IMG/VR virus record: IMGVR_UViG_3300032092_000082
Span: 1 to 39,902 of that record
DNA from: a virus
Length of the DNA stretch: 39,902 nt
Strand: one strand, 5' to 3'
Shown here: positions 4,133 through 39,524 of the stretch, one piece after another
How the letters are laid out: every line of letters begins with the position of its first letter
How positions within the stretch are numbered: position 1 is the first letter of the stretch
Made by a program: the position numbers and the translations under genes
Notes under the pieces: model-generated
Databases searched by the model: none
Told to the model about the DNA's origin: nothing
Seen by the model: the letters and a program-made list of their open reading frames with translations, nothing else

Positions 4133-4858
4133 GTGAGCGACGAACTGCTGACCATCGAAGAGGCCCTGGACTTCCAGGACCGACTGCCTGACACCTGGAA
4201 GCGATACCGCGTCGGCATCGCAGAGCGACGCGAACAGAACGGCTGGACGATCGAGCCCTTCTCCATCGACCGCGACTGCGCGGCGCGCAAGCGCTACATC
4301 CTCGAAGGCGGCCTTGACCGTGATTGCGGATGGGGCGATGGCTTCACGATGCTCAAGAAGAACGGCGTCATCTGGATGTCTGACACCAGGGCCGAGATCA
4401 TGGAGCACTCGCCCTTCCTCAACAAGCTCTGGTGGCTCGAAGACGCAAAGCCGCGAGTCCTCATCAACGGCCTTGGGCTTGGTATGGCAGTTCGAGCCGC
4501 CCTGGTACACGGCGCGGAGCATGTGGATGTCGTGGAGATCGACCAGGACGTGATCGACCTGATCGGGCCGACGTTCGCCAATGACCCAGTCACCATTCAC
4601 CATGCAGACGCCTTTGAGGTCGAGTGGCCAGAGGGCACGACGTGGACCCTGGCTTGGCACGACATATGGCCGGCCATCGACGACGACAACCTTCCCGGCA
4701 TGGCCCAACTGAGGGCCAAGTACGAGAGCAGCGTTGAGTGGCAGGACTGCTGGCAGGAGGCGGGCTGCCGAGCGATGGAGGCATGGCGGGCCGAGTTCCA
4801 AGAGGCCCTCGCATCGGGCGACCTGGCCCGAATCAAGCAACTAGACCCCCACTTCTGA
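4133..4858 (+). CDS. Class I SAM-dependent methyltransferase-like protein
   Basis: 241 aa. A Rossmann-fold signature is visible: VLINGLGLGMAVRAAL (motif I glycine loop), then VDVVEIDQDVIDLI with an acidic residue at the end of strand 2, and IHHADAF (motif II-like). The layout resembles spermidine-synthase-type folds. The sequence TLAWHDIWP occupies the motif IV position, so the acceptor could be a small molecule, protein or nucleic acid. The GTG start at 4133 is set by the AGGAGG of the leader. The C-terminal ~60 residues are helical and Trp-rich. No DNA methylase DPPY/NPPY motif is present, so a DNA target is not supported. Confidence 0.78.
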   Translation: MSDELLTIEEALDFQDRLPDTWKRYRVGIAERREQNGWTIEPFSIDRDCAARKRYILEGGLDRDCGWGDGFTMLKKNGVIWMSDTRAEIMEHSPFLNKLWWLEDAKPRVLINGLGLGMAVRAALVHGAEHVDVVEIDQDVIDLIGPTFANDPVTIHHADAFEVEWPEGTTWTLAWHDIWPAIDDDNLPGMAQLRAKYESSVEWQDCWQEAGCRAMEAWRAEFQEALASGDLARIKQLDPHF

Positions 4859-7719: not shown

Positions 7720-7934
7720 GCCACATTGACGCCCTGCTCGACGCCGAGTTGCGATTTGAGGAGACCGGCTACGGCACCTGGGATCTCACCGCCGACGGAT
7801 CAACCCTGCTGCGTATTGAGCAGGACGACGAGGGAAAGAGGGCTTACCTCTGGGTGTACGGGGTACCGGACAGGCCCATTGCTGGACCGTTCGACATCGA
7901 CCTGAAGAAACTCAAGAAGCGGCTCAGGTCATGA
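7716..7934 (+). CDS. Hypothetical protein, 72 aa
   Basis: ATG 7716 overlaps the previous stop; no strong Shine-Dalgarno, so probably translated by coupling. Small acidic protein with a basic C-terminus (LKKLKKRLRS). Its stop overlaps the methyltransferase start, so the two may be co-translated. No known domain. Confidence 0.7.
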   Translation: MSHIDALLDAELRFEETGYGTWDLTADGSTLLRIEQDDEGKRAYLWVYGVPDRPIAGPFDIDLKKLKKRLRS

Positions 7935-8914
7935 AGTACGCATCCACGTTCGCTGGGATCGGCGGCTTCGACCTCGGCTTTGATCGAGCGGGGATGCAGC
8001 CGACCGTCCAAATCGAGATCGACGACAACTGCCAGAAGGTGCTGAGCCGCCACTGGCCCACAACACCGAAGGCAGGTGACATCTGTGACGTCAGCGGAAC
8101 CGATCTGGGAGAGCCCGACCTCATCTGCGGAGGCTTCCCCTGTCAAGACCTCTCCATCGCTGCGCCTCATCGGAAGGGACTCGCCGGAAGCCGGTCTGGC
8201 CTCTACTACGAGTTCACCCGTCTTGTCGACGAACACCTCAGGCTCGTCGACGCCAGCAAGCCCCGATGGACAGTCCTCGAAAACACCGAAGGGCTTCTCA
8301 AGAGTAACGGGGGACGGGACATGGCCGCCGTCGTCCGTGGTCTGGAAGAGCTCGGGTATGGGTGGGCCTACCGAGTGGTGGACGGGCGACACCTCGGCAC
8401 GACCCAGCGACGCCGTCGAGTGCTCGTGGTCGGACATCGTGGAGGAGACCCCCGACCCGCATGGGAAGTTCTGGGTGACGAAGGAGCAGGCAGCCAAGCT
8501 ACTGGAGCGCATCAAGTCGGCCGGTCCTCGAATGGACCCCGGCCTGTACCGAGCCCTGTCCAAACTGCTGGAACCGTAGTCTGGCGAAAGAGCGCCCGAG
8601 CCCGCGCCTCACTGGCTAAGGGCGGCTATGAGACGTGGAAGCCGGATGGCGACGCCAACACCCTCACCGGGTTCGACGGCGGTGGGCCCCTCCGGCAGAC
8701 GCACTTGATCGCTCAGGGCGGCGGACTCCGCACCCTGACGCTCACGGAATGGGAGCGCCTCCAGGGCTTCCCAGATGGATGGACCAAAGACGCGCCGGAT
8801 AGCGCCAGGTACACGCAACTCGGGAACGCCGTTGCTGTGCCGATGGGCGAGTGGCTGGGCCGACGACTGATGGCAGTCGAGGCAACCGTGCCAATGATCC
8901 GAACGACCGTCTGA
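7931..8914 (+). CDS. dcm: DNA (cytosine-5) methyltransferase
   Basis: Transfers methyl from S-adenosylmethionine to C5 of cytosine, probably protecting phage DNA from restriction. 327 aa, with the family motifs in order: I FAGIGGFDLGF (7-17), IV GGFPCQDLS (67-75) with nucleophile Cys71, VI ENTEG (117-121; usually ENV), VIII QRRRRV (159-164), and IX/X LTEWERLQGFPDGWT and QLGNAVAVP near the C-terminus. The target-recognition region between VIII and IX is short and overlaps another ORF in the +1 frame. No partner restriction enzyme is adjacent, so it looks like an orphan methylase. Starts at ATG 7931, overlapping the previous stop. Confidence 0.93.
   Translation: MKYASTFAGIGGFDLGFDRAGMQPTVQIEIDDNCQKVLSRHWPTTPKAGDICDVSGTDLGEPDLICGGFPCQDLSIAAPHRKGLAGSRSGLYYEFTRLVDEHLRLVDASKPRWTVLENTEGLLKSNGGRDMAAVVRGLEELGYGWAYRVVDGRHLGTTQRRRRVLVVGHRGGDPRPAWEVLGDEGAGSQATGAHQVGRSSNGPRPVPSPVQTAGTVVWRKSARARASLAKGGYETWKPDGDANTLTGFDGGGPLRQTHLIAQGGGLRTLTLTEWERLQGFPDGWTKDAPDSARYTQLGNAVAVPMGEWLGRRLMAVEATVPMIRTTV
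8076..8579 (+). CDS. Overlapping +1-frame ORF nested in the methyltransferase
   Basis: An open frame of 167 codons lies wholly inside the methyltransferase gene, shifted by +1. The first half is Ser/Pro/Thr-rich and looks like an out-of-frame product. The last ~70 residues look like a real domain: SSGMGGPTEWW, then SDAVECSWSDIVEETPDP, then a basic helical segment FWVTKEQAAKLLERIKSAG and a clean stop. From memory, phage ORFs with the pattern CSLSDxLE followed by LSxxAxxGILRRAxxRG occur next to or within phage cytosine methylase genes. The true start is uncertain: GTG 8076 is the first in frame, and no clear Shine-Dalgarno is visible. Function unknown. It could be a non-expressed shadow. Confidence 0.45.
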   Translation: MTSVTSAEPIWESPTSSAEASPVKTSPSLRLIGRDSPEAGLASTTSSPVLSTNTSGSSTPASPDGQSSKTPKGFSRVTGDGTWPPSSVVWKSSGMGGPTEWWTGDTSARPSDAVECSWSDIVEETPDPHGKFWVTKEQAAKLLERIKSAGPRMDPGLYRALSKLLEP

Positions 8915-23664: not shown

Positions 23665-24669
23665 TCACTCCCAGGCTCGACGGTCACCGATCCATTCGCC
23701 ACTGATTGCTGGTAGTGCCGAGAATTCGACGGCCATTCCATCCGCCGAACTCTCTCGGAACACGACGACGGCGCCGCTTTGATAGCCAAGCGCCTTCGCG
23801 TGTCCACACCCGTGGCGCACGCCCTCGAACCAGGGTTCGCTGGAGTCGTTGGCGTTCCCGGTGTCATTGGAGTCGTAGAGCGTCTTAACCTCGAGCGGCG
23901 TCAACTCTCCAACCCCGGCATACAAAGTCTTGGCGGTGAGCTGGATTTGGTTGACGTAGTCATCGCCATAGGCAGTCCCGTCGCCACCAACCTGAATAGG
24001 CGAGCCATCCCAGTCGTACGAAGACGTCGGAACCGTATCGTCGTACCCGCTGTACCGGACCAGGACCATCGGGTTCCCGAGCTTGGACAGTTCCGCAATC
24101 CAGTGCGGGAAGTCTGAGATCAAGAGAGAGCTGTTGCTGCTGTAAGAACCGGAGCCGTCGATTACACAGACGATCGCCCCGCCCGACACGGCATTATCGA
24201 CGGCCGTCTTAAGTGGAGTCAGCTCGGCGGCGTCGGTAGACATCGCCCACATTGACGAGTGGTTGGCCGCGCTCGTGGCATAACTCAACGAGTTTGAGGG
24301 TCGAGTGGTGTTGGTTACCAGCGAGAGCACGGTGCACCACCTGTGATAACCGTTGTGCCCGTTGTAGATGGCGGCAGGAACTGACGACTCCAGCGCCACC
24401 GGATCCAGTGGGGCTGCCTTCACGTTCCACTGACACTCAAAGAAGCGCCAGTTGTACGCGAAGAGTGCCGCCATCCCCTCAAACCACTCGGCGGAATTGG
24501 CGGGCCCAACCGGAGTGGTCGAACTCCACTCCGAGGCGGTTGGGCTTCCGCGCCGAAAGCCGATTCGGGCCGCCCCTCCAGCATACTTCTGTGTACTTTC
24601 GTTGTAGCTCAAGTAGTGCCACGTGTGGTGAACCAACCCGTCGTAACCCAGAACCGGAAGAAACGGCAT
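23665..24669 (-). CDS. Probable virion-associated protein, 334 aa
   Basis: ATG 24669 directly follows the stop of the deaminase-family gene. Rich in Ser, Gly, Trp and Tyr and poor in Lys, as in tail or receptor-binding proteins. A hydrophobic strand followed by VIDGSGSYSS (D-G-S-G-S) resembles the MIDAS of VWA domains, and VLVRYSGYDD could be the next strand, but the other MIDAS residues are not certain. The C-terminal LTPLEVKTLYDSND and EPWFEGVRHGCGHAKALGY are unrecognised. Structural role is inferred from composition and from the next structural-type gene on the same strand. Confidence 0.65.
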   Translation of the reverse strand: MPFLPVLGYDGLVHHTWHYLSYNESTQKYAGGAARIGFRRGSPTASEWSSTTPVGPANSAEWFEGMAALFAYNWRFFECQWNVKAAPLDPVALESSVPAAIYNGHNGYHRWCTVLSLVTNTTRPSNSLSYATSAANHSSMWAMSTDAAELTPLKTAVDNAVSGGAIVCVIDGSGSYSSNSSLLISDFPHWIAELSKLGNPMVLVRYSGYDDTVPTSSYDWDGSPIQVGGDGTAYGDDYVNQIQLTAKTLYAGVGELTPLEVKTLYDSNDTGNANDSSEPWFEGVRHGCGHAKALGYQSGAVVVFRESSADGMAVEFSALPAISGEWIGDRRAWE

Positions 24670-26615: not shown

Positions 26616-27194
26616 TCAGGTGGCTAGGGCCTTGTGGAGGAACTCCCCCACGGACGCCACGCGCCGGCCGGGGGCCACTTCGCAGTCCTGGTTCCACGGG
26701 CGGTCGATCAGGTAGGCGTCCGTGCCTGCGGCCACCAGGGCCTCGTAGTTGGCGGGCTTGTCCTCACACATGACGTCGGTTCGGACGACCGTCTTGTCTT
26801 TGGCGAACGTCAATGAGTGGAACGGGATGTCCATCTTGAGGAGCCACCTCATGGTGTTCCGCTTGGAGGCGAACGGGGTTGTTCCGAAACCCCGATCGGT
26901 GATGATGTGAATCTCGTGCCCAGCGGCATAGGCGGCCCGAACGTCCTCGTCCGCACGATCCAGACACCCGCCCGAACCGAACAAGACTCCAATGTCCGCC
27001 GCGCGGTTGCAGTGGAGCAGGAACTCCTCGTCGGTCAGCCCCCAGTCCTCGTAGAAGCCCCAGTGCGTTGCATCCTTGTGGAGCTGATCTGGGTGAAGCC
27101 CTTCGTAGGACTCGAGGTAGTGCCGCAAGGAGTCGGCGAAGTCGTACATGCAACCATCAAGGTCGATTCCGATGCGCGTCCGCTTGTCAACCAT
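26616..27194 (-). CDS. HAD-family 5'-nucleotidase-like phosphatase
   Basis: 192 aa. The N-terminus RIGIDLDGCMYDF is HAD motif I with both Asp residues (DLD). HIITDRGF is motif II and the region DVMCEDKPANYE with a later YLIDRPWN supplies the motif III/IV acidic residues. The layout matches the NT5C/deoxyribonucleotidase-like group, which hydrolyses nucleoside monophosphates. Together with the deaminase-family enzyme it suggests nucleotide-pool control. ATG 27194 has no strong ribosome-binding site, since the upstream gene ends 3 nt away. A 6-bp inverted repeat (CCTGAG/CTCAGG, 26585-26620) overlaps its stop. Confidence 0.85.
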   Translation of the reverse strand: MVDKRTRIGIDLDGCMYDFADSLRHYLESYEGLHPDQLHKDATHWGFYEDWGLTDEEFLLHCNRAADIGVLFGSGGCLDRADEDVRAAYAAGHEIHIITDRGFGTTPFASKRNTMRWLLKMDIPFHSLTFAKDKTVVRTDVMCEDKPANYEALVAAGTDAYLIDRPWNQDCEVAPGRRVASVGEFLHKALAT

Positions 27195-27735: not shown

Positions 27736-28127
27736 TTCACATACTCCTCAGTCTTCATGCAGTGGTAGCAAGCGTCCGGGTACTGGCCGTGCTCACAGAG
27801 TCCCGAGCGAGCGAACTCGCTCTTGCGCTGACGCCAAAGCGCCATGCCAGTAACGCCTGGTAGCTCAATGAGATCCCAGAGCAGAACCTGGGCGACCTGC
27901 TTCGGGATGATGACGCCCTTCGCGTTCGGGGCCCCATGGACGAAGTCGTGGCAGCGCCGGCAGAGCGAGATGAGGTTTCCTGGAACGTCGTCAGAGCTGC
28001 CTCGTCGATAGCGGATGTGGTGTGGGTCGACCGGCACGCCAACTCGTCCACACCAGCGACAACGGCCACCGTCTCGCTCGAGGACCTCCTGCTTGAGGAT
28101 CCGGTCCAGCCCGTCATAGCGCCCCAT
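27732..28127 (-). CDS. HNH endonuclease
   Basis: 131 aa from ATG 28127; TTG 28142 in the same frame is an alternative with a poorer ribosome-binding site. Core: CRWCGRVGVPVDPHHIRYRRG and NLISLCRRCHDFVHG, with two CxxC pairs, the catalytic His of the DPHH element, Asn and the final His. A C-terminal CEHGQYPDACYHC adds another possible zinc knuckle. Unrelated in detail to the + strand HNH at 22725. Overlaps the nucleotidyltransferase gene by 14 nt. Confidence 0.88.
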   Translation of the reverse strand: MGRYDGLDRILKQEVLERDGGRCRWCGRVGVPVDPHHIRYRRGSSDDVPGNLISLCRRCHDFVHGAPNAKGVIIPKQVAQVLLWDLIELPGVTGMALWRQRKSEFARSGLCEHGQYPDACYHCMKTEEYVK

Positions 28128-28932
28128 CAAACCAAGCCTCAATGTGGACGCGTGTCAGGAAGTCGTTGACCTTCTGCCAATCCGCATGCTCGGGTACGTC
28201 TGCGGAGTCCAGGGTCTCCCTGAGCTCCTCCTCGAGGTCGATCGCAACCGACATGATCTCCTTGTAGGAGTAGCGGCCGGCTCGCACCGCCCTCAGCATC
28301 TCGCCGTCCGCCCCAGGGATGGGCAAAGTAATTCGACCCTCCGTCAGGAACTCACACCCCTGGATTCCGAGGCGCAGCATGTGCATCGCGAACTTGGTGT
28401 CGTAGCCAAACTGGGCGACCAACTCAGGCCGATTGGATCGAGGTGCCCGAAGGCCAGCCCGCGAATCCTCCATCCGCTTCCGCTGGGCGTCCATGTATCC
28501 CAGGAAGCGACGGCCTGCCGACTTGGTCACGAAGTTGTCGCTGAACTTCAGCAACTCGTCTCCAGAGCGAGTCGAGTACATGCGCTCGGGCGGAGTGAAC
28601 AGCGAGACCAGGATCGAGGGATTTCCAGCGGACGCCAGTTCCACGAACTTGTGAAGCGAGTGGATGCTGAGGTCGATATCCCCAGCCTTAGAACGCTCCC
28701 CATTCTCGGCCGTGCGCCAGACCAGTGACGAGAAGGGCCGCAACCCCAGGACTTCATTCGCTGGCATGAGAGAGATGCCCAGGTAGTCCAGGTCGCCCCC
28801 GTCGGCGCTACTGGTTCCGTAGACCGAAGATCCAGTCTCGGCGAGGAACATGATTCGACTGGCAGCCTTTGGATACGCGTCCCAATCAGAGCAGTACTTG
28901 CCCTCGGGGAGAACCAGGTTGCCAACGATCAC
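28114..28932 (-). CDS. Predicted nucleotidyltransferase (RlaP/YcgL-like)
   Basis: 272 aa, GTG 28932. The pol-beta-type active site is visible as ETGSSVYGTSSADGGDLDYLGI (G-S then D-x-D, positions ~32-53). A helical C-terminal part with YDTKFAMHMLRLGIQG and LPIPGADGEMLRAVRAGRY follows the pattern of the COG3541/PF10127 family (RNA ligase-associated RlaP, YcgL). Members are predicted to transfer nucleotides to an unknown acceptor, possibly RNA ends. The only ligase in the window is the DNA ligase 25 kb away, so partnership is speculative. Confidence 0.82.
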   Translation of the reverse strand: MIVGNLVLPEGKYCSDWDAYPKAASRIMFLAETGSSVYGTSSADGGDLDYLGISLMPANEVLGLRPFSSLVWRTAENGERSKAGDIDLSIHSLHKFVELASAGNPSILVSLFTPPERMYSTRSGDELLKFSDNFVTKSAGRRFLGYMDAQRKRMEDSRAGLRAPRSNRPELVAQFGYDTKFAMHMLRLGIQGCEFLTEGRITLPIPGADGEMLRAVRAGRYSYKEIMSVAIDLEEELRETLDSADVPEHADWQKVNDFLTRVHIEAWFDGAL

Positions 28933-29087
28933 TTCGCCTCGCCCCCCCAGACGTGAAGGCGAAAGGGGCCGCCCGAGGCGTTGAACTGCTGCTCGAAGTT
29001 GAGGGCGTCTTCAGCGGTCGCCAGATCGAGCGTGCCCCGCCCAACGGTCTCGCCAAACGCGATTACGTCCATGACGAAAACAGGCAT
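28929..29087 (-). CDS. Hypothetical protein, 52 aa
   Basis: ATG 29087 to TGA 28929, overlapping both neighbours. Starts MPVFVMDVIAFGETVGRGTL, then helix and a final FRLHVWGGEAK strand; compact alpha/beta. No motif. Its overlap-coupled position is the main support. Confidence 0.62.
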   Translation of the reverse strand: MPVFVMDVIAFGETVGRGTLDLATAEDALNFEQQFNASGGPFRLHVWGGEAK

Positions 29088-29503
29088 CAGAAGCCCACCT
29101 CGTCGTCGCTGGCTGCGACGGGAGTCGCGTCCCAGTGGTCAGCCGTGCGGCCAAACGAAACCCCGAGCTCCTCGGACTCCTCAGCTGTCGGGACTGACTT
29201 AGCACTCGCGGAGCCCCCAACGCCGTCATCAGCCTCTTCGGGAGCGAAGTGCGACACCAGCTGAACTGACTCCAGTCCAAAGATGTGGTGACGCGACAAG
29301 CCCCCCTTGCGATCTTCCTCGTAGCGGACGTTCTTGACCCTCACCTCCAGCATCAAACGGAGGTGAGTGCCACGTGCGTAGCCCTCAGCCATCTCCATCG
29401 TGATGGCCGGCAGTTTCGCCATCATCGAGGTCACGAACTCACCCTCGAACTTGGCTACCGCAATGGGTTCGCCAGGTTCGTACTCACGAGTCTCGTCAGT
29501 CAT
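29087..29503 (-). CDS. Hypothetical protein with SSB-like acidic end, 138 aa
   Basis: ATG 29503. The N-terminal ~90 residues are beta-rich (THLRLMLEVRVKNVRYEED, HHIFGLESVQLVSHF), compatible with a small OB- or jelly-like fold. The C-terminal third is Ser/Asp/Glu-rich and ends DDEVGF, similar to the acidic-aromatic tail of single-strand binding proteins. Sits in the replication block. Function not established. Confidence 0.7.
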   Translation of the reverse strand: MTDETREYEPGEPIAVAKFEGEFVTSMMAKLPAITMEMAEGYARGTHLRLMLEVRVKNVRYEEDRKGGLSRHHIFGLESVQLVSHFAPEEADDGVGGSASAKSVPTAEESEELGVSFGRTADHWDATPVAASDDEVGF

Positions 29504-29685
29504 GCCTTTGCCCTTCCCCCCACGCGAGGGTCGTCGACGCCCGGAACCAGGCGCGAGCGAAGCGAGCGAGGCCCGAAGGGCCGGTCCTGGTGAGGACGTC
29601 GCGCGATCCCTCGCGTCTTGGCAGCCTGTTTCATCCCCTGCTCCTGTTCCTGCACAAAGCGAACATTAGCGAACATCTGCTTCAC
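29500..29685 (-). CDS. Doubtful small basic ORF, 61 aa or 44 aa
   Basis: GTG 29685 or, with a better ribosome-binding site (AGGAGCAGGGG), ATG 29634. The product is Arg/Gln-rich and low in folding motifs. The underlying DNA holds GCGAGCGAAGCGAGCG and the hairpin GGCCC-GAA-GGGCC (29570-29582), so this may be a structured spacer rather than a gene. Its ATGA overlap with the next gene is the only positive argument. Confidence 0.35.
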   Translation of the reverse strand: MKQMFANVRFVQEQEQGMKQAAKTRGIARRPHQDRPFGPRSLRSRLVPGVDDPRVGGRAKA

Positions 29686-30418
29686 CGCCAGGAAGGAGCC
29701 CGTAGCGTGTCTTGACTTCCTGAGTGACCGCCTTTGCCAGGACCTCGTTCGCCTTCCTGAGCGTTGGTGACTGGTCCTGGAAGTCCGCGTTGATGATGCG
29801 CGCGTAGAGATCCCAGAGCTTGTCCTGGTCGAGATCGCCGACCGTCTCTGCCATCGCGTATGCGACCTGGCTCACGATGCGATCCGAAACTTGCTCGCGC
29901 GAAGAAGTAACTTCCTCCTGCTGGTAACCAGAAGCCTGAGAACTTGATGTAACTTCCGGAGTAGCGGGTAGGTAGCCTGTCGGTTCTTGTTGGTTCTTCT
30001 TTTGGTTACTGTCGCACTCTGAGACTTTGGATCGCTCACTCTGAGACTTTGGATCGTCAGAGTGAGACTTTGGATCGCCCTCCTTCAGCCGCACAATCTT
30101 GTGTGCATAGAGCCACTCGTCGTACGAAATGAACTCCAGCTGGTCGTCCAGGTTGACTGAAATCAGGTCCGAGGTACGACCACCACGGCTCTGCGATGAG
30201 CGCTTGATCCTGGCGATCAGGCCGACCTGTTCCAGGTACGCCAGGGCGCGGTTGATCGTGCTGCGACCGAGGCCCGTGTCGTCGGCCAGGAGGGCCTGAG
30301 AGGGCCAGCAGACACCCGACTGGTCGGTGCGTGCTGCCAGCGCCCTCAGGACCGTCCTGGGCGTCTTGTGGAGGCTCTTGAAGCGGTCGCGCACGAACTC
30401 CTCGTCGCGGAAGGTCAT
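29666..30418 (-). CDS. Helix-turn-helix replication initiator-like protein
   Basis: 250 aa, ATG 30418, overlapping the primase-helicase stop. The N-terminal ~85 residues form a winged helix (VLRALAARTDQSGVCWPSQA, then GLGRSTINRALAYLEQVGLI), the HTH_36-type domain used by phage replication initiators and DnaD-like loaders. A polar linker (residues ~113-170) is encoded by the iteron repeats. The C-terminal helical part (AYAMAETVGDLDQDKLWDLY) may contact the helicase. Position next to the primase-helicase supports origin recognition or helicase loading. The role is inferred, the domain call is solid. Confidence 0.8.
   Translation of the reverse strand: MTFRDEEFVRDRFKSLHKTPRTVLRALAARTDQSGVCWPSQALLADDTGLGRSTINRALAYLEQVGLIARIKRSSQSRGGRTSDLISVNLDDQLEFISYDEWLYAHKIVRLKEGDPKSHSDDPKSQSERSKVSECDSNQKKNQQEPTGYLPATPEVTSSSQASGYQQEEVTSSREQVSDRIVSQVAYAMAETVGDLDQDKLWDLYARIINADFQDQSPTLRKANEVLAKAVTQEVKTRYGLLPGGEADVR
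30015..30077. repeat. Three iteron-like direct repeats, candidate replication origin
   Basis: CACTCTGAGACTTTGGATCG at 30015-30034 and identical at 30037-30056; a third copy at 30058-30077 differs at three bases (CAGAGT for CACTCT). Start-to-start spacing is 22 and 21 nt, two turns of the helix. CACTCTGA (30037-30044) and TCAGAGTG (30057-30064) form an inverted repeat. A T-rich stretch lies alongside at about 29981-30010. They are inside the initiator-like gene, as in phage lambda where the origin iterons lie in gene O. Confidence 0.7.
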
Positions 30419-32622
30419 GCGTCACCACCGAACATCGAGACATCCTCGAAGCCGTCGGGCAACGAGCGCTCGGCCAGGCCGTGCTCCTGCTCCCACGAGG
30501 TGGCGTCCTTCTCCTTGTCGTACTTGAACCGGAGAATCGGCGGCCGTCCATTTGTCTTCTCGAAGGAGCCGCGAGAGAGGGCGTCGATGTAGTGGGGGCG
30601 AACAGTGGCCACCGATACGCCATAGCGAGCGGCTGCCATGTTGAGGAAGTCATCCTCGGTCGTCGGGCACGCCTCCAGGAGCATCTGCTCGAGCGATTCG
30701 GCGCTCGGCCGACTCCACTTCTCGTTGGAGCGCTCAGCCTCCTGGTAGTACTCGTCGTGCGAGTACGGGGTGATCGCCGAGTATGCGATCGACGTGCGGT
30801 CGCGGTACAGCGCCAGGGGCTCGGGTGCGGCGTGGTCACGGAAAGCGGTGAACGTCGCAATCGAGTTGAACGGGTTCTCCACCGAACGGTTCAGGAAGTT
30901 CAGCAGGATGGTCGCGTTCGGCCACCCGGTCCAGAGGAACGACCCCGCCACCGAATCCGGATCGGCAATGTCGTTGTTCTCCTTCGCCTTGCCGCCCTGC
31001 GACTTCTTCATGTGATGCGTCATGACGACCGAGACGCCCGTGTTGTGGATGACCTTGTCGAGGACCTCGAACGCCTTCATCAGGCTCTTCGACGACTCCA
31101 TGTCCGCCAGGAACTTGTAGGCGGTGTCCAGGATCACGACCTCGGCACCGTTCTGCTCCACCAGCTGAGCGAGCACGTCGTACGCACCCTCGTGGTCGAG
31201 GCGGAGAAGGTGGTCGTGGTCGATGAGGAGGTTCTCCATCGCGGCGCCGTAGGCCGGTCGCTTCTCGATCAACTCGTGGAGACGCGTGAACAGTGAGTAC
31301 TTGCTCAGCTCGCGGTCCAATAGCAGAGTCCTGACGCCACCGTGACGGACGGCCTCAGGGTCGAAGCCGTCCTGCCCCAGGTTGTTGATGGGGAAGCGGT
31401 CCAGGAAGGAGACACCCGCCGACAGTGAGAGGGCGAGGTTGTCCACGAAGATCGACTTTCCGACCTTTGGACGGCCGGCGATAAGCAGACGGCCACCACG
31501 CGGGAGGATTCCCTCAGCCACGAGGAACGTAGCGGTCTCGGGCGGACTCTCGGAGATCTCCGCCAGGCTCAACACCTTGTAGGGAGTAGCCCGCTTTCCG
31601 GTCGCCAACTCCGCGAAGTCAGCGTTGGAGTGACCGTCTCGCATGAAGAAGTCGTTGATATCCGTCTTGCGGACATCTTCATCCTCAGGCAGCGGGAGGA
31701 CGATGTTCCGGGCACGCCACCCGATATCCTCCAGCCGCTTCATCGCAGCTTCCTGTCCAGGGTTGTGCCCCTGGCAGCGTCCGTGCGACTCGCACATCCG
31801 GCAGACCTTGCCCTCGTCAGGCTTGTCATAGATGTGGTGCTCGGGGTTGTCGTTGTCGAAGCAGATCAGGACCTTGCGAGCCTTGATGAACTTGGCCTGC
31901 CACTCCGGCCGCCACTGAGAAGCGCCGGGTACAGCCACGGCGGCGTACCCCATCTGGACGAGCAGCATGGCCTTCTGCTCACCCTCGCAAAGGAACACCT
32001 GTCCATCTGCGTCGCCGATTGCATCCTGGGCGTTGAAGAGGGTCGTGGTCGAGCCCTCTTCCCAGGTGTACTTCTTCTTGCCGCCGTCCGGGTTGTAGTA
32101 GCGGAAGAGGACGGGCCGGCGTCCCTCGAGATACGGAATCACGTATCGGCCATGCTCGGCGTCGTAGCCGAGGCGGAACCGCTCAATGGTGGTGTCCGTC
32201 AGGCCATGGTCATAGAAGGGCTTGCGGAGCGCCGTGGTCAGGAGGCGCTCGTACTCCTTGAGCTGCGTCTCCTTGCTCTTGAAGGCGGTGACGTAGTCGT
32301 CTTCGACGTCGATGCCGAAGAAACGCTCAAGCGTCTGAAGGTTGCCGCGCTCGCCACATGAGGCCGAGTGGCAGGTGTAGAGACCGCTCTCGGCGTTGAC
32401 GTAGAAGTTGGGGCTCTTGTTCCTGGCAACCGAGCCGGGGCCCTCGTGGAAGGGGCAGGCAAACGAGTACTGCCCGCTCTGCGGCTTCTTGCTCCTTGCG
32501 GGGTGGCCGTTGTCTTCGAGGAGACGGAGGACGGCTTCACCCTCGGTTGCTGAGGCTCGGTGTCCGAGGTTCGTGTTGGGTCGGGCATTTCGGGCGGATT
32601 CCACCAAAGTAAGGCGAGTCAT
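30415..32622 (-). CDS. Primase-helicase (CHC2 zinc, Toprim, RecA-like ATPase)
   Basis: 735 aa, ATG 32622. Synthesises RNA primers and unwinds DNA at the fork. The N-terminal zinc domain shows CPFHEG (56-61) and CHSASCGERG (84-93). Toprim: FLCEGEQKAML with Glu213, and CFDNDNP (255-260). A CxxC-x5-C insertion (VCRMCESHGRC, 273-283) lies just after the acidic Toprim motif. The C-terminal ATPase has Walker A GRPKVGKS (383-390), Walker B VVILDT (495-500) and THHMKK (535-540), of the RepA/AAA_25 type. The upstream 28-codon ORF overlaps its start (ATGA). The last ~60 residues may be a winged-helix tail. Confidence 0.92.
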   Translation of the reverse strand: MTRLTLVESARNARPNTNLGHRASATEGEAVLRLLEDNGHPARSKKPQSGQYSFACPFHEGPGSVARNKSPNFYVNAESGLYTCHSASCGERGNLQTLERFFGIDVEDDYVTAFKSKETQLKEYERLLTTALRKPFYDHGLTDTTIERFRLGYDAEHGRYVIPYLEGRRPVLFRYYNPDGGKKKYTWEEGSTTTLFNAQDAIGDADGQVFLCEGEQKAMLLVQMGYAAVAVPGASQWRPEWQAKFIKARKVLICFDNDNPEHHIYDKPDEGKVCRMCESHGRCQGHNPGQEAAMKRLEDIGWRARNIVLPLPEDEDVRKTDINDFFMRDGHSNADFAELATGKRATPYKVLSLAEISESPPETATFLVAEGILPRGGRLLIAGRPKVGKSIFVDNLALSLSAGVSFLDRFPINNLGQDGFDPEAVRHGGVRTLLLDRELSKYSLFTRLHELIEKRPAYGAAMENLLIDHDHLLRLDHEGAYDVLAQLVEQNGAEVVILDTAYKFLADMESSKSLMKAFEVLDKVIHNTGVSVVMTHHMKKSQGGKAKENNDIADPDSVAGSFLWTGWPNATILLNFLNRSVENPFNSIATFTAFRDHAAPEPLALYRDRTSIAYSAITPYSHDEYYQEAERSNEKWSRPSAESLEQMLLEACPTTEDDFLNMAAARYGVSVATVRPHYIDALSRGSFEKTNGRPPILRFKYDKEKDATSWEQEHGLAERSLPDGFEDVSMFGGDA

Positions 32623-37526: not shown

Positions 37527-39524
37527 TCAGTCGACTCCGGATCCCCTGAAGGCCCGAATGGGCTCACTGGGGTCGCCGTCTACGTTTGGCTGCTCCACGG
37601 GAACTAGCGCCGTCACCACGAGCAGATTGGACGCGGTTTCATCGTCCTGAATCAGGGCCATCCGCCCATCCTCTGTACCCTGCGCCCAGCCCTCCACAAA
37701 TTGGCTCTCATTCGCAGGCTTCGACAGGAGCTCAAGGTCATTGGAGGTGAACGCAGCCTCCACCTTGTTGTTGCGCCAGTACTGGCCGAATAGCCCAAGG
37801 GACCCATGCTGCCAATACGACCATGGGTCTACAGCAGCGCTCGAGTCGAGGATCGTTGTCCGAATGCCGCCCAAGTAAGACACCATGATCGGGTAGAGGT
37901 AGGTGCTCGGCGGCTCGAAGTAGTCATCGACAGTGCGAATCGGGCCGCCAAAGTCGATGCCGAAGAGGTCCTGGCCGTAGGCGTTGTCGTTGTTGACTAG
38001 CGGCACATCGAGCACCTGAACCAGGGCGCCGGATTCGTCCAACCTGAATCGCCACAGGCTAGGAGTGGCTTGGTACCTGTTGCCGACGTAGTAGACGTCT
38101 CGGCGACCGTTGTCCGTGTGCAGGTTGCCCGGAATTGAGTCGTCCAGCGACTCGGTCTCGATTAGGTGCATGTACGGCCCGCCCCAGGTGCCATTCAGGT
38201 TCCACGGGAATGGGCTGTCGGTCCACAGCGGTGCATGGTCGATAAATCCAGAGCTGTCGCCCAGCTTGTAGAAGTAGGTGCGCTCGACAAAGTTCCCGGC
38301 GTCCGGGGGGATGTTTTCCCCTACGTCGGTAACAAGGCCGTAGATGGAATTCCCAATAACCGCAAGGTCGCCGAGGGGCTTGAGGGCACCGTCAACCTGC
38401 ACGGGTGGCCGCACTACGGACTGGTCGGTGGGGTCCAGGATGATCGCCTGATCCCCGAGCTGGATGAAGTTGCTTACTGCACCCTGGGAGTAGTACCGAG
38501 TGCAGCGGAGAATGAGGGCCACGTTTCCGTCGTCGAGCACGGTGACCCTGGGGCTATCTGCTCGCAGGTGCCCCGCGTAGCCCGAGCCCGATTCGATCAG
38601 CGTGTAGACCAGGACCGGGCCTCCGACAACCACCATGCCAGTGCCGTTGAACTCGAACGCCTGATGCCAGATTCGGGTGCCCGTCAGCGGTGAGTCGGTG
38701 TAGAAGTTGCCGCCGTATCGGGCCTCGACCGCGTAGACGTTGAGGACGTCCCCGGCCCAGTATCCAACGGCGTCCATGACTCGGAAGCTGATTGAAATGG
38801 GGATCTGGACGGCCTTCCAATCCGTCCAGTTCATGCCGATGCGAGACGCAAGCACGCTGCCACCCTCTTCTTGTGTTGCAGGGGGAGGGCCCAGGCTTGC
38901 AGAGATGTAGGCCGGATCCATGGCGGGATACGGGTAGTCCGGCAATGGATCTGGCGGCTGGTAGGACATGGATACGGTCACCGTGGAGGCGCCCGAAGCC
39001 GTCGGAGCGATCTCGGTAGGTACGATCCAATTGACCGCTGACGTACCAGTGATTGCCGCCTCGATGAAGCCCGGCCTGAGGAAGTAGGCCTCGACGGTCG
39101 AGGATCCAGATATCGGGTCGGGCTCAAGGATCAGAACGGCCGACATGGAGACATCGACCGTGGAGGAGCCGGCAATGGTGTTGCTTTCAACGAGCGTCGG
39201 AACGCCCTGCATCAAGACCGTGACTGTGGCCGCCCCTGCCGCCGTCCTGGTGACGATGCGCGGGTCCGTAAGGCTCTTCCAGACCATCCCGGGAGTCTCT
39301 GTCGGGACGGCGGGAATCCAGGGCTGACGCTCGGGGGAGATGACTCCGGGCTGAGCGACCGACGACCCAGAGATGGACACGCTAAACGGGGTCGGAAGTG
39401 CCGGGGTTGTGATCGTGACAGAAACCGACGCCTGTCCATCGGCGCTTGCATAGATGCTATCGCTTGATGCAAGCGTCACGCCGCCAAGCACCAGCGGAAG
39501 CGGGGAGGCTCCCAGTCCGCTCAC
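37527..39524 (-). CDS. Large tail/adhesin-type protein with N-terminal repeats, 665 aa
   Basis: ATG 39524. The N-terminal ~190 residues carry a short repeat of the form xSGSSTVxVSM: near 28-38, 95-105, 117-127, 138-148, 158-168 and 176-186, with 18-22-residue spacing after residue 95. The remaining ~470 residues are beta-rich and Trp/Tyr/Gly-rich (VLVYTLIESGSGYAGHL, FYKLGDSSGFID, RRDVYYVGNRYQ), like a beta-propeller or stacked sandwich. Resembles the 453-aa protein at 25210 in composition. Likely a minor tail or receptor-binding protein. No enzyme motif. Confidence 0.75.
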   Translation of the reverse strand: MSGLGASPLPLVLGGVTLASSDSIYASADGQASVSVTITTPALPTPFSVSISGSSVAQPGVISPERQPWIPAVPTETPGMVWKSLTDPRIVTRTAAGAATVTVLMQGVPTLVESNTIAGSSTVDVSMSAVLILEPDPISGSSTVEAYFLRPGFIEAAITGTSAVNWIVPTEIAPTASGASTVTVSMSYQPPDPLPDYPYPAMDPAYISASLGPPPATQEEGGSVLASRIGMNWTDWKAVQIPISISFRVMDAVGYWAGDVLNVYAVEARYGGNFYTDSPLTGTRIWHQAFEFNGTGMVVVGGPVLVYTLIESGSGYAGHLRADSPRVTVLDDGNVALILRCTRYYSQGAVSNFIQLGDQAIILDPTDQSVVRPPVQVDGALKPLGDLAVIGNSIYGLVTDVGENIPPDAGNFVERTYFYKLGDSSGFIDHAPLWTDSPFPWNLNGTWGGPYMHLIETESLDDSIPGNLHTDNGRRDVYYVGNRYQATPSLWRFRLDESGALVQVLDVPLVNNDNAYGQDLFGIDFGGPIRTVDDYFEPPSTYLYPIMVSYLGGIRTTILDSSAAVDPWSYWQHGSLGLFGQYWRNNKVEAAFTSNDLELLSKPANESQFVEGWAQGTEDGRMALIQDDETASNLLVVTALVPVEQPNVDGDPSEPIRAFRGSGVD

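Follow-up and report, generated by a model that had tools for sequence, protein, structure and literature searches.

A probable lambda-type replication origin within the gene for an HTH_36 O-like phage initiator

The window analyzed here, a 39,902-base virus record with a G+C content of 62%, encodes an O-like replication initiator whose gene carries three 20-bp iterons, followed in the sense of the gene by an A-rich stretch with three AACC boxes. We infer from the sequence that the initiator binds these iterons and that the site functions as an origin, and it is quite likely to be a lambda-type replication origin lying within the gene that encodes its initiator. By its features it is filed as an HTH_36 O-like initiator with an in-gene iteron origin, set apart from the known lambda type because of the AACC boxes, which are absent at that place in lambda.

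Table 1. Positions in the window of the initiator gene, the parts of the proposed origin and the adjoining helicase gene
Feature	Position	Strand	Details
HTH_36 O-like replication initiator gene carrying the proposed origin	29666..30418	-	250 aa; ORF and translation
HTH_36 codons (residues 21-68)	30215..30358	-	Pfam; block means of pLDDT 89-96 over residues 11-70
Linker codons (residues 108-171)	29906..30097	-	predicted; pLDDT mostly under 50; holds the iterons and AACC boxes
C-terminal helix codons (residues 171-239)	29702..29908	-	predicted structure; putative partner-recruiting role
Iteron, first in gene order	30058..30077	-	frame 0, peptide DPKSHSD
Iteron, second in gene order	30037..30056	-	frame 0, peptide DPKSQSE
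Iteron, third in gene order	30015..30034	-	shifted frame, peptide RSKVSEC
Three AACC boxes (30004-30007, 29992-29995, 29982-29985)	29982..30007	-	steps of 12 and 10; proposed opening element
Primase-helicase gene	30415..32622	-	735 aa; phrog_239 (E 3e-36); AAA_25, DUF3854, weak Toprim_3

The initiator and its genome context

The initiator protein matched HTH_36 (PF13730) with an E value of 9e-11 and 41.8 bits, against a curated cut-off of 25. Of the 14 PHROG families that it also matched, 10 carried a replication initiation or O-like label, and four of these matches had E below 1e-10; the best match was phrog_391, 'replication initiation O-like' (E 4e-14). There was no RepA_N match in Pfam at E up to 1e-3. 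The structure predicted by AlphaFold2 from a 16-row alignment of proteins from the window and the fetched loci (mean pLDDT 70.6, pTM 0.45) comprised a winged helix in residues 1-90, a disordered linker in residues 108-171 and three helices in residues 171-239, which places the array between the N-terminal DNA-binding part and the C-terminal part. The initiator sequence alone matched nothing in the PDB at E up to 0.1, a profile of the initiator matched regulators there (best E 6e-7), and a Foldseek search with the model returned nothing at E up to 1e-3.

The primase-helicase gene lies directly upstream of the initiator gene, the stop and start codons of the two sharing 4 nt, and its product is likely to be the partner of the initiator. 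Genes for a Sak4-like annealing protein and an exonuclease were found further upstream, beyond the primase-helicase, and an integrase and a clamp-loader-like protein were encoded farther from the initiator gene. The gene next downstream of the initiator (29087-29503) had no match in PHROGs or Pfam at E up to 1e-3. Also downstream, on the minus strand, the gene at 28114-28932 matched RlaP, an RNA repair pathway family of DNA polymerase beta type (PF10127, E 1e-23), and that at 26616-27194 matched phrog_420 and, weakly, a polynucleotide kinase family. Two methyltransferase-like genes were present on the plus strand (4133-4858 and 7931-8914); the 327-aa product of the latter matched positions 208-492 of the 779 in phrog_116, a larger DNA methyltransferase family. 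Rfam gave no match at the gathering score, no tRNA was found in the window, and GC skew showed no clear turn near 30 kb, which lends no support to an origin there.

The helicase was matched by 406 phage records, the majority of them from actinophages, which is only a hint as to the host. Helicases 64-67% identical to that of the window were encoded at two loci, L007 and L008. L008 ends inside the helicase, so that the place of the initiator gene is not covered, and L007 (64% identical) is the nearest relative that spans this place. Beside the L007 helicase there was no HTH gene and there were no such repeats, and a search of the 144-kb record that contains it gave no match to the initiator protein at E up to 10. 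This absence weighs against the proposed origin and indicates that the initiator module is exchangeable. Small ORFs occupy the region of L007 (7250-9060) between the helicase and an apparent homologue of the window gene at 29087-29503, a likeness judged by eye. No structural gene was found among the 20 window proteins that were compared with PHROGs, and because of this, and because the helicase relative L007 lies in a 144-kb contig, the window may represent only part of a larger phage genome.

Three iterons, one of them out of frame

The three 20-bp repeats that the original prediction had placed inside a helix-turn-helix initiator-like gene were recovered at the same positions. The second and third copies in gene order are identical and the first matches them at 85%, with start-to-start distances of 21 nt from the first to the second and 22 nt from the second to the third. 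Tandem Repeats Finder (TRF), run on the whole window, reported a repeat at 30015-30078 with a period of 22. With up to 3 mismatches, a 19-base version of the iteron matched only the three iteron sites in the window, all of them on the minus strand, against an expectation of 0.04. The repeat score was never reached in 2000 codon shuffles of the initiator gene. The iterons cover codons 114-135, within the predicted disordered linker. They contain no obvious dyads by eye; in some relatives dyads seem clear by eye.

Translation agreed with the reading of the two copies spaced by 21 nt as in-frame, matching heptapeptides. The copy reached by the 22-nt step, which is the last in gene order, is out of frame as predicted and nevertheless keeps 20 of 20 bases. 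The two out-of-frame copy pairs had a mean DNA identity of 92% over 18 nt, against a peptide identity of 17% over 6 aa. The T-rich stretch noted beside the repeats was also real: in gene sense its composition was 0.44 A and 0.06 T over 50 nt.

Conservation of the array in distant relatives

Close relatives of the initiator gene were sought by blastn in phages, through the 665-aa gene in viral_contigs, and by exact DNA matching of the iteron pair in viral_contigs and genome_contigs, and none was found. Because of this, distant relatives were examined; one search gave five loci with about 35% identity. The set comprised 87 genes: 17 from the first searches, including the window and lambda, 55 relatives of the gene of Labrenzia phage vB_LagS-V1 (L026-L080), and 15 from named phages, which were chosen for variety from 60 listed of 108 records. 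By source, the 87 genes came from 7 of 21, 3 of 27 and 15 of 108 matching records, from all loci of two further searches and from lambda; L025 was fetched and left unscored. An array was called when at least 3 copies were present and at most 1 of 30 codon shuffles matched them. Because copies had to share an 11-mer, one mismatch being allowed, only 3 of the 4 lambda iterons were detected. Since the set contained many near copies (one cluster had 49 members), protein clusters rather than genes were counted, each represented by its first member having an array.

Relatives were to be aligned, according to the original prediction, to learn whether they keep the repeats. The distant relatives mostly did: 79 of the 87 genes, the window included, had an array of 3 or more copies following the HTH part. 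Clustering at 45% identity gave 22 clusters, of which 19 had an array, or 18 of 21 once the window was set aside. The expectation did not hold for the other eight genes (L017, L018, L019, L020, L022, L023, L070 and L085). L017 has two copies, which are significant by another test, and the L070 gene is cut at the contig end. L019, L020 and L023 are short HTH-only relatives of 85-106 aa with no arrays, and may be regulators or truncated initiators. Among the plasmid-borne relatives, L022 and L023 had no array and L024 had one.

The arrays started at codons 80-155 in the 19 clusters, in proteins of 224-416 aa. Iteron sequences differed between clusters; position was the same and pitch was similar. 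Among the 52 steps of the 19 representatives, 10 were of 22 nt, 15 of 23 nt and 8 of 24 nt. A distinct pattern of 17, 17 and 22 nt was common to the initiator genes of L079, L083 and L092, even though the iterons of L079 differ in sequence from those of the other two, and may be a sub-architecture of its own. Modulo three, the 52 steps left remainders of 0, 1 and 2 in 17, 15 and 20 cases, and at least one out-of-frame step was present in 16 of the 19 clusters. Repeats maintained for the protein would leave a remainder of zero only, so the nearly even spread over the three frames argues that the DNA rather than the peptide is conserved. Out-of-frame pairs had DNA identities of 65-92% and peptide identities of 0-27% (18 clusters at 70% identity, excluding lambda and L021). 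The earlier argument that identity kept across a frame shift reflects selection on DNA is thus supported by the distant relatives, whose steps fall in all three frames, and such selection is the simplest reading of the step frames.

In the L026-L080 loci, a repeat test at p up to 0.02 was passed by 47 of 55 initiators versus 11 of 150 other ORFs. The test on a single gene is weak evidence, and it is the agreement across clusters that counts; the family statistics are themselves optimistic because the clusters are not fully independent. Similarity of the recognition helix was correlated with iteron similarity over 38 genes, excluding lambda (partial Mantel r 0.18, p 0.002), but among 472 distant pairs there was no covariation (Spearman -0.02), and the correlation was not used as evidence.

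The A-rich stretch and the AACC boxes

Past the array, in gene sense, the window is A-rich and T-poor, with an A-T asymmetry of 0.38 that ranks in the top 2% of the 50-nt windows of the gene. Its AT content over 50 nt is a moderate 0.50, compared with 0.41 for the gene and 0.72 in lambda. The corresponding stretch was A-rich and T-poor in 8 of 13 clusters (50% identity), where it ranked in the top 7% of its own gene, and not in the remaining 5. The combined p of 4e-7 for the 13 clusters is optimistic because several of them are related.

The three AACC boxes of the window sit in frames 0, 0 and 1. Three AACC within 26 nt arose in 0.3% of codon shuffles of the initiator gene, and the window has only one such triple on the minus strand and one more on the plus strand near 24631; given these two figures, the boxes in the window alone are modest evidence, and the case for them rests on the pattern in the family. 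Within 80 nt past the array, 17 of 19 clusters contained at least two AACC (16 of 18 if the window is left out). In control windows from the same genes, the best 4-mer reached a mean of 5.7 clusters and a maximum of 10 in 500 draws, and in codon shuffles of the stretch itself a mean of 7.6 and a maximum of 11. Among 5-mers, AACCA occurred in 13 clusters, against maxima of 4 in the control windows and 7 in the codon shuffles. The two clusters without AACC boxes there were represented by lambda and by a Klebsiella type (L021) with 15-nt in-frame repeats.

AACC was first noticed by reading the stretches, and the 15 named-phage loci were then fetched as a hold-out. At least two AACC were found in 13 of its 14 array genes (0.8 expected), and a pair 10-14 nt apart in 9 (0.0 expected); a few of the 14 genes belong to clusters already seen. 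Over all array genes, 71 of 79 had an AACC pair 10-14 nt apart. Of 36 steps between neighboring boxes, nine were of 12 nt, nine of 13, four of 11 and two of 10, so that 24 of the 36 were of 10-13 nt. The 54 AACC copies fell in frames 0, 1 and 2 in 14, 25 and 15 cases, and the consensus of the box, from 49 copies, was roughly AAAGAACCANNAA. In Salmonella phage SI8 (L085, 1144-1776), an HTH gene adjoining a primase/helicase has AACC at 315, 332 and 344 and no detectable iterons.

A reverse search for GAACCAGTAA occurring twice yielded at least 147 matches in at least 120 loci. Among the matches listed, 38 (in 29 loci) were in winged-helix ORFs, and all 38 had upstream repeats at p up to 0.05. 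The other 109 of the 147 matches listed were outside winged-helix ORFs, and the strict pair was rejected as a specific marker for this reason; 31 of these 109 also had repeats, mostly with steps of 18 or 24 nt, and the same count on a smaller set of at least 80 loci gave 25 of 93 matches. Because the AACC box is short and the reverse search is not specific, it is meaningful only beside an array. Five of the loci (L100, L114, L121, L134 and L159) contained two GAACCAGTAA pairs exactly 761 bases apart, outside winged-helix ORFs, one pair of each two adjoining a TGAACCACT repeat with 18-nt spacing. No description of the AACC boxes was found among the open-licence papers listed, and an earlier one may exist.

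Comparison with known origins

The origin inside gene O of lambda is textbook knowledge, and the iteron array of the window lies mid-gene in its initiator as that of lambda does. The predicted likeness to lambda held at the level of spacing: the annotated lambda iterons start at 39034, 39054, 39078 and 39101, with steps of 20, 24 and 23, two of the three being out of frame, so the frame slip in the window is ordinary for such origins. Both have an A-rich, strand-asymmetric stretch on the same side of the array. The lambda flank is more AT-rich than that of the window and contains no AACC (seven occur elsewhere in gene O), whereas the window flank has three. Lambda P brings the host DnaB; the neighbor in the window is a primase-helicase rather than a P-type DnaB loader, and assignment to the lambda O/P replication module was rejected. 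Lambda has four iterons and the window three; three are enough for lambda according to earlier work cited in PMC7466680. The lambda O protein is described as binding the iterons in gene O and opening the adjacent A+T-rich region (PMC7466680, PMC5043065).

The staphylococcal RepA_N plasmid pSK41 offers a second comparison. Its N-domain is described as binding four boxes located centrally in the rep gene, and the origin encodes a linker in the protein, a segment that is dispensable for action in trans (PMC5703833). In pPR9, according to the same source, a segment spanning N-domain and origin has been replaced, the new N-domain has a pfam13730 (HTH_36) HTH, and the rep region replicates autonomously (PMC5703833). 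By analogy, pPR9 can be taken as the closest experimental support for an HTH_36 domain that travels with an in-gene origin, the iterons in its gene being only presumed. The window initiator differs from pSK41 in Pfam domain, and in belonging to a phage and not a plasmid. The RepA_N domain 4pql superposed on the initiator with a Z of 10.0 (2.8 A over 85 residues), a score tied with those of unrelated winged helices, and RepA_N membership was rejected by sequence, leaving a similarity of fold only.

A similar arrangement is found in Labrenzia phage vB_LagS-V1 (L015) and its relatives (L026-L080), in which an HTH protein is likewise followed by an array, there with 23-nt steps, and then by three AACC boxes. 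The HTH protein of this phage is 29.9% identical to that of the window over residues 14-195, and the iteron sequences of the two are unlike (CCGTGTCTCAAA against GATCCAAAGTCTCA); GTCTCA is common to the iterons of both types. For Paracoccus plasmids with HTH_36 Reps, two iteron-like repeats are reported in oriVs that are named apart from rep, a single partial copy extending over the start codon of rep, and the related pKL1 origin is upstream of rep (PMC3832669). Given these oriVs, and the absence of arrays from L022 and L023, possession of an HTH_36 domain is not by itself a sign of an in-gene origin, and phages may account for most cases of the in-gene layout.

In oriC and RK2 oriV, too, initiator sites adjoin short direct repeats; these 13-mers differ in sequence from the AACC boxes and resemble them by anatomy only. 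RK2 TrfA is reported to bind one strand of the four 13-mers beside the iterons, all four being needed, and repeated motifs in the AT-rich regions of other origins, including lambda, are noted in the same source (PMC4081077), so that repeats of the AACC type are a known kind of feature. By this analogy, the place and pitch of the AACC boxes would be right for a role like that of the 13-mers bound by TrfA.

Alternative explanations

Iterons and operators are similar in look, and many iteron initiators autoregulate. The repeats could accordingly be operators for the HTH protein or for another regulator, acting in transcription, with replication starting elsewhere, and the resemblance of HTH_36 domains to MarR/GntR-type regulators favors this. 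We consider it unlikely, since the array sits in the middle of a coding sequence with no other copy within the window, the PHROG matches are mostly to initiation proteins, a primase-helicase adjoins with the Sak4-like protein and exonuclease further upstream, and an A-rich stretch follows the array as it does in lambda.

Less probable still is a functionless array that arose by chance or by recent tandem duplication in a floppy linker. Two of the copies are identical, the linker is predicted to be disordered, and ordinary ORFs also show repeats (among the 150 control ORFs of the L026-L080 loci, 11 pass at p up to 0.02 and 24 at p up to 0.06). Such a history is hard to reconcile with the codon shuffles, none of which in 2000 reached the repeat score, with the frameshift of the C-terminal half that a lone 22-nt duplication would cause, with the recurrence of arrays at the same position and similar pitch but with differing repeat sequences in 19 of 22 clusters, and with the AACC boxes that adjoin the repeats. 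We give the lowest probability, a very small one, to repetition selected in the protein as a repeated linker peptide, with DNA similarity as a by-product. In its favor, the first two copies share a frame and encode similar peptides, and arrays are wholly in frame in 3 of 19 representatives (L021, L081 and L082) and in L086, L091 and L094 as well; against this, the third copy of the window keeps 20 of 20 bases out of frame, steps in the other genes are spread over all three frames, and out-of-frame pairs retain DNA identities of 65-92% at peptide identities of 0-27%. A replication origin inside the initiator gene is the reading that we prefer.

Proposed mechanism and significance

For such an origin, the winged-helix N-terminal domain would bind the three 20-bp iterons, which are about two helical turns apart. 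Binding would strain the DNA directly downstream in gene sense, where the A-rich, T-poor stretch with its three AACC boxes would open. The boxes are about one turn apart, and the exposed strand may be held there by the initiator, a step modelled on the RK2 initiator and its 13-mers. The C-terminal helices probably contact and would recruit the primase-helicase from the adjacent gene, a proposal drawn from gene order only.

Beyond the window, it is possible, and put forward tentatively, that HTH_36 phage initiators share a hitherto undescribed in-gene element made up of iterons and about three AACC(A) boxes, with AACC as a common sequence-specific site of strand capture. If so, specificity would come from the domain and its iterons, and the AACC boxes would provide a shared step of opening, a division suggested by the variation of iteron sequences between families while the AACC box is constant, and the boxes would be the phage counterpart of the 13-mers of oriC and RK2. 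The title of PMC5043065 presents strand opening as an open question, and the AACC boxes point to a definite and mutable element by which HTH_36 phage origins could open.

The sample examined suggests that in-gene origins are common in HTH_36-type phage initiators, which are labelled in their records as 'helix-turn-helix protein', 'primosomal protein I', 'replication protein O' or 'hypothetical protein', and an origin could therefore be proposed from sequence in many phages. That similar sets of repeats are kept at the same place in distant relatives, whatever peptide is encoded there, suggests that in these initiator genes it is the DNA itself that is preserved.
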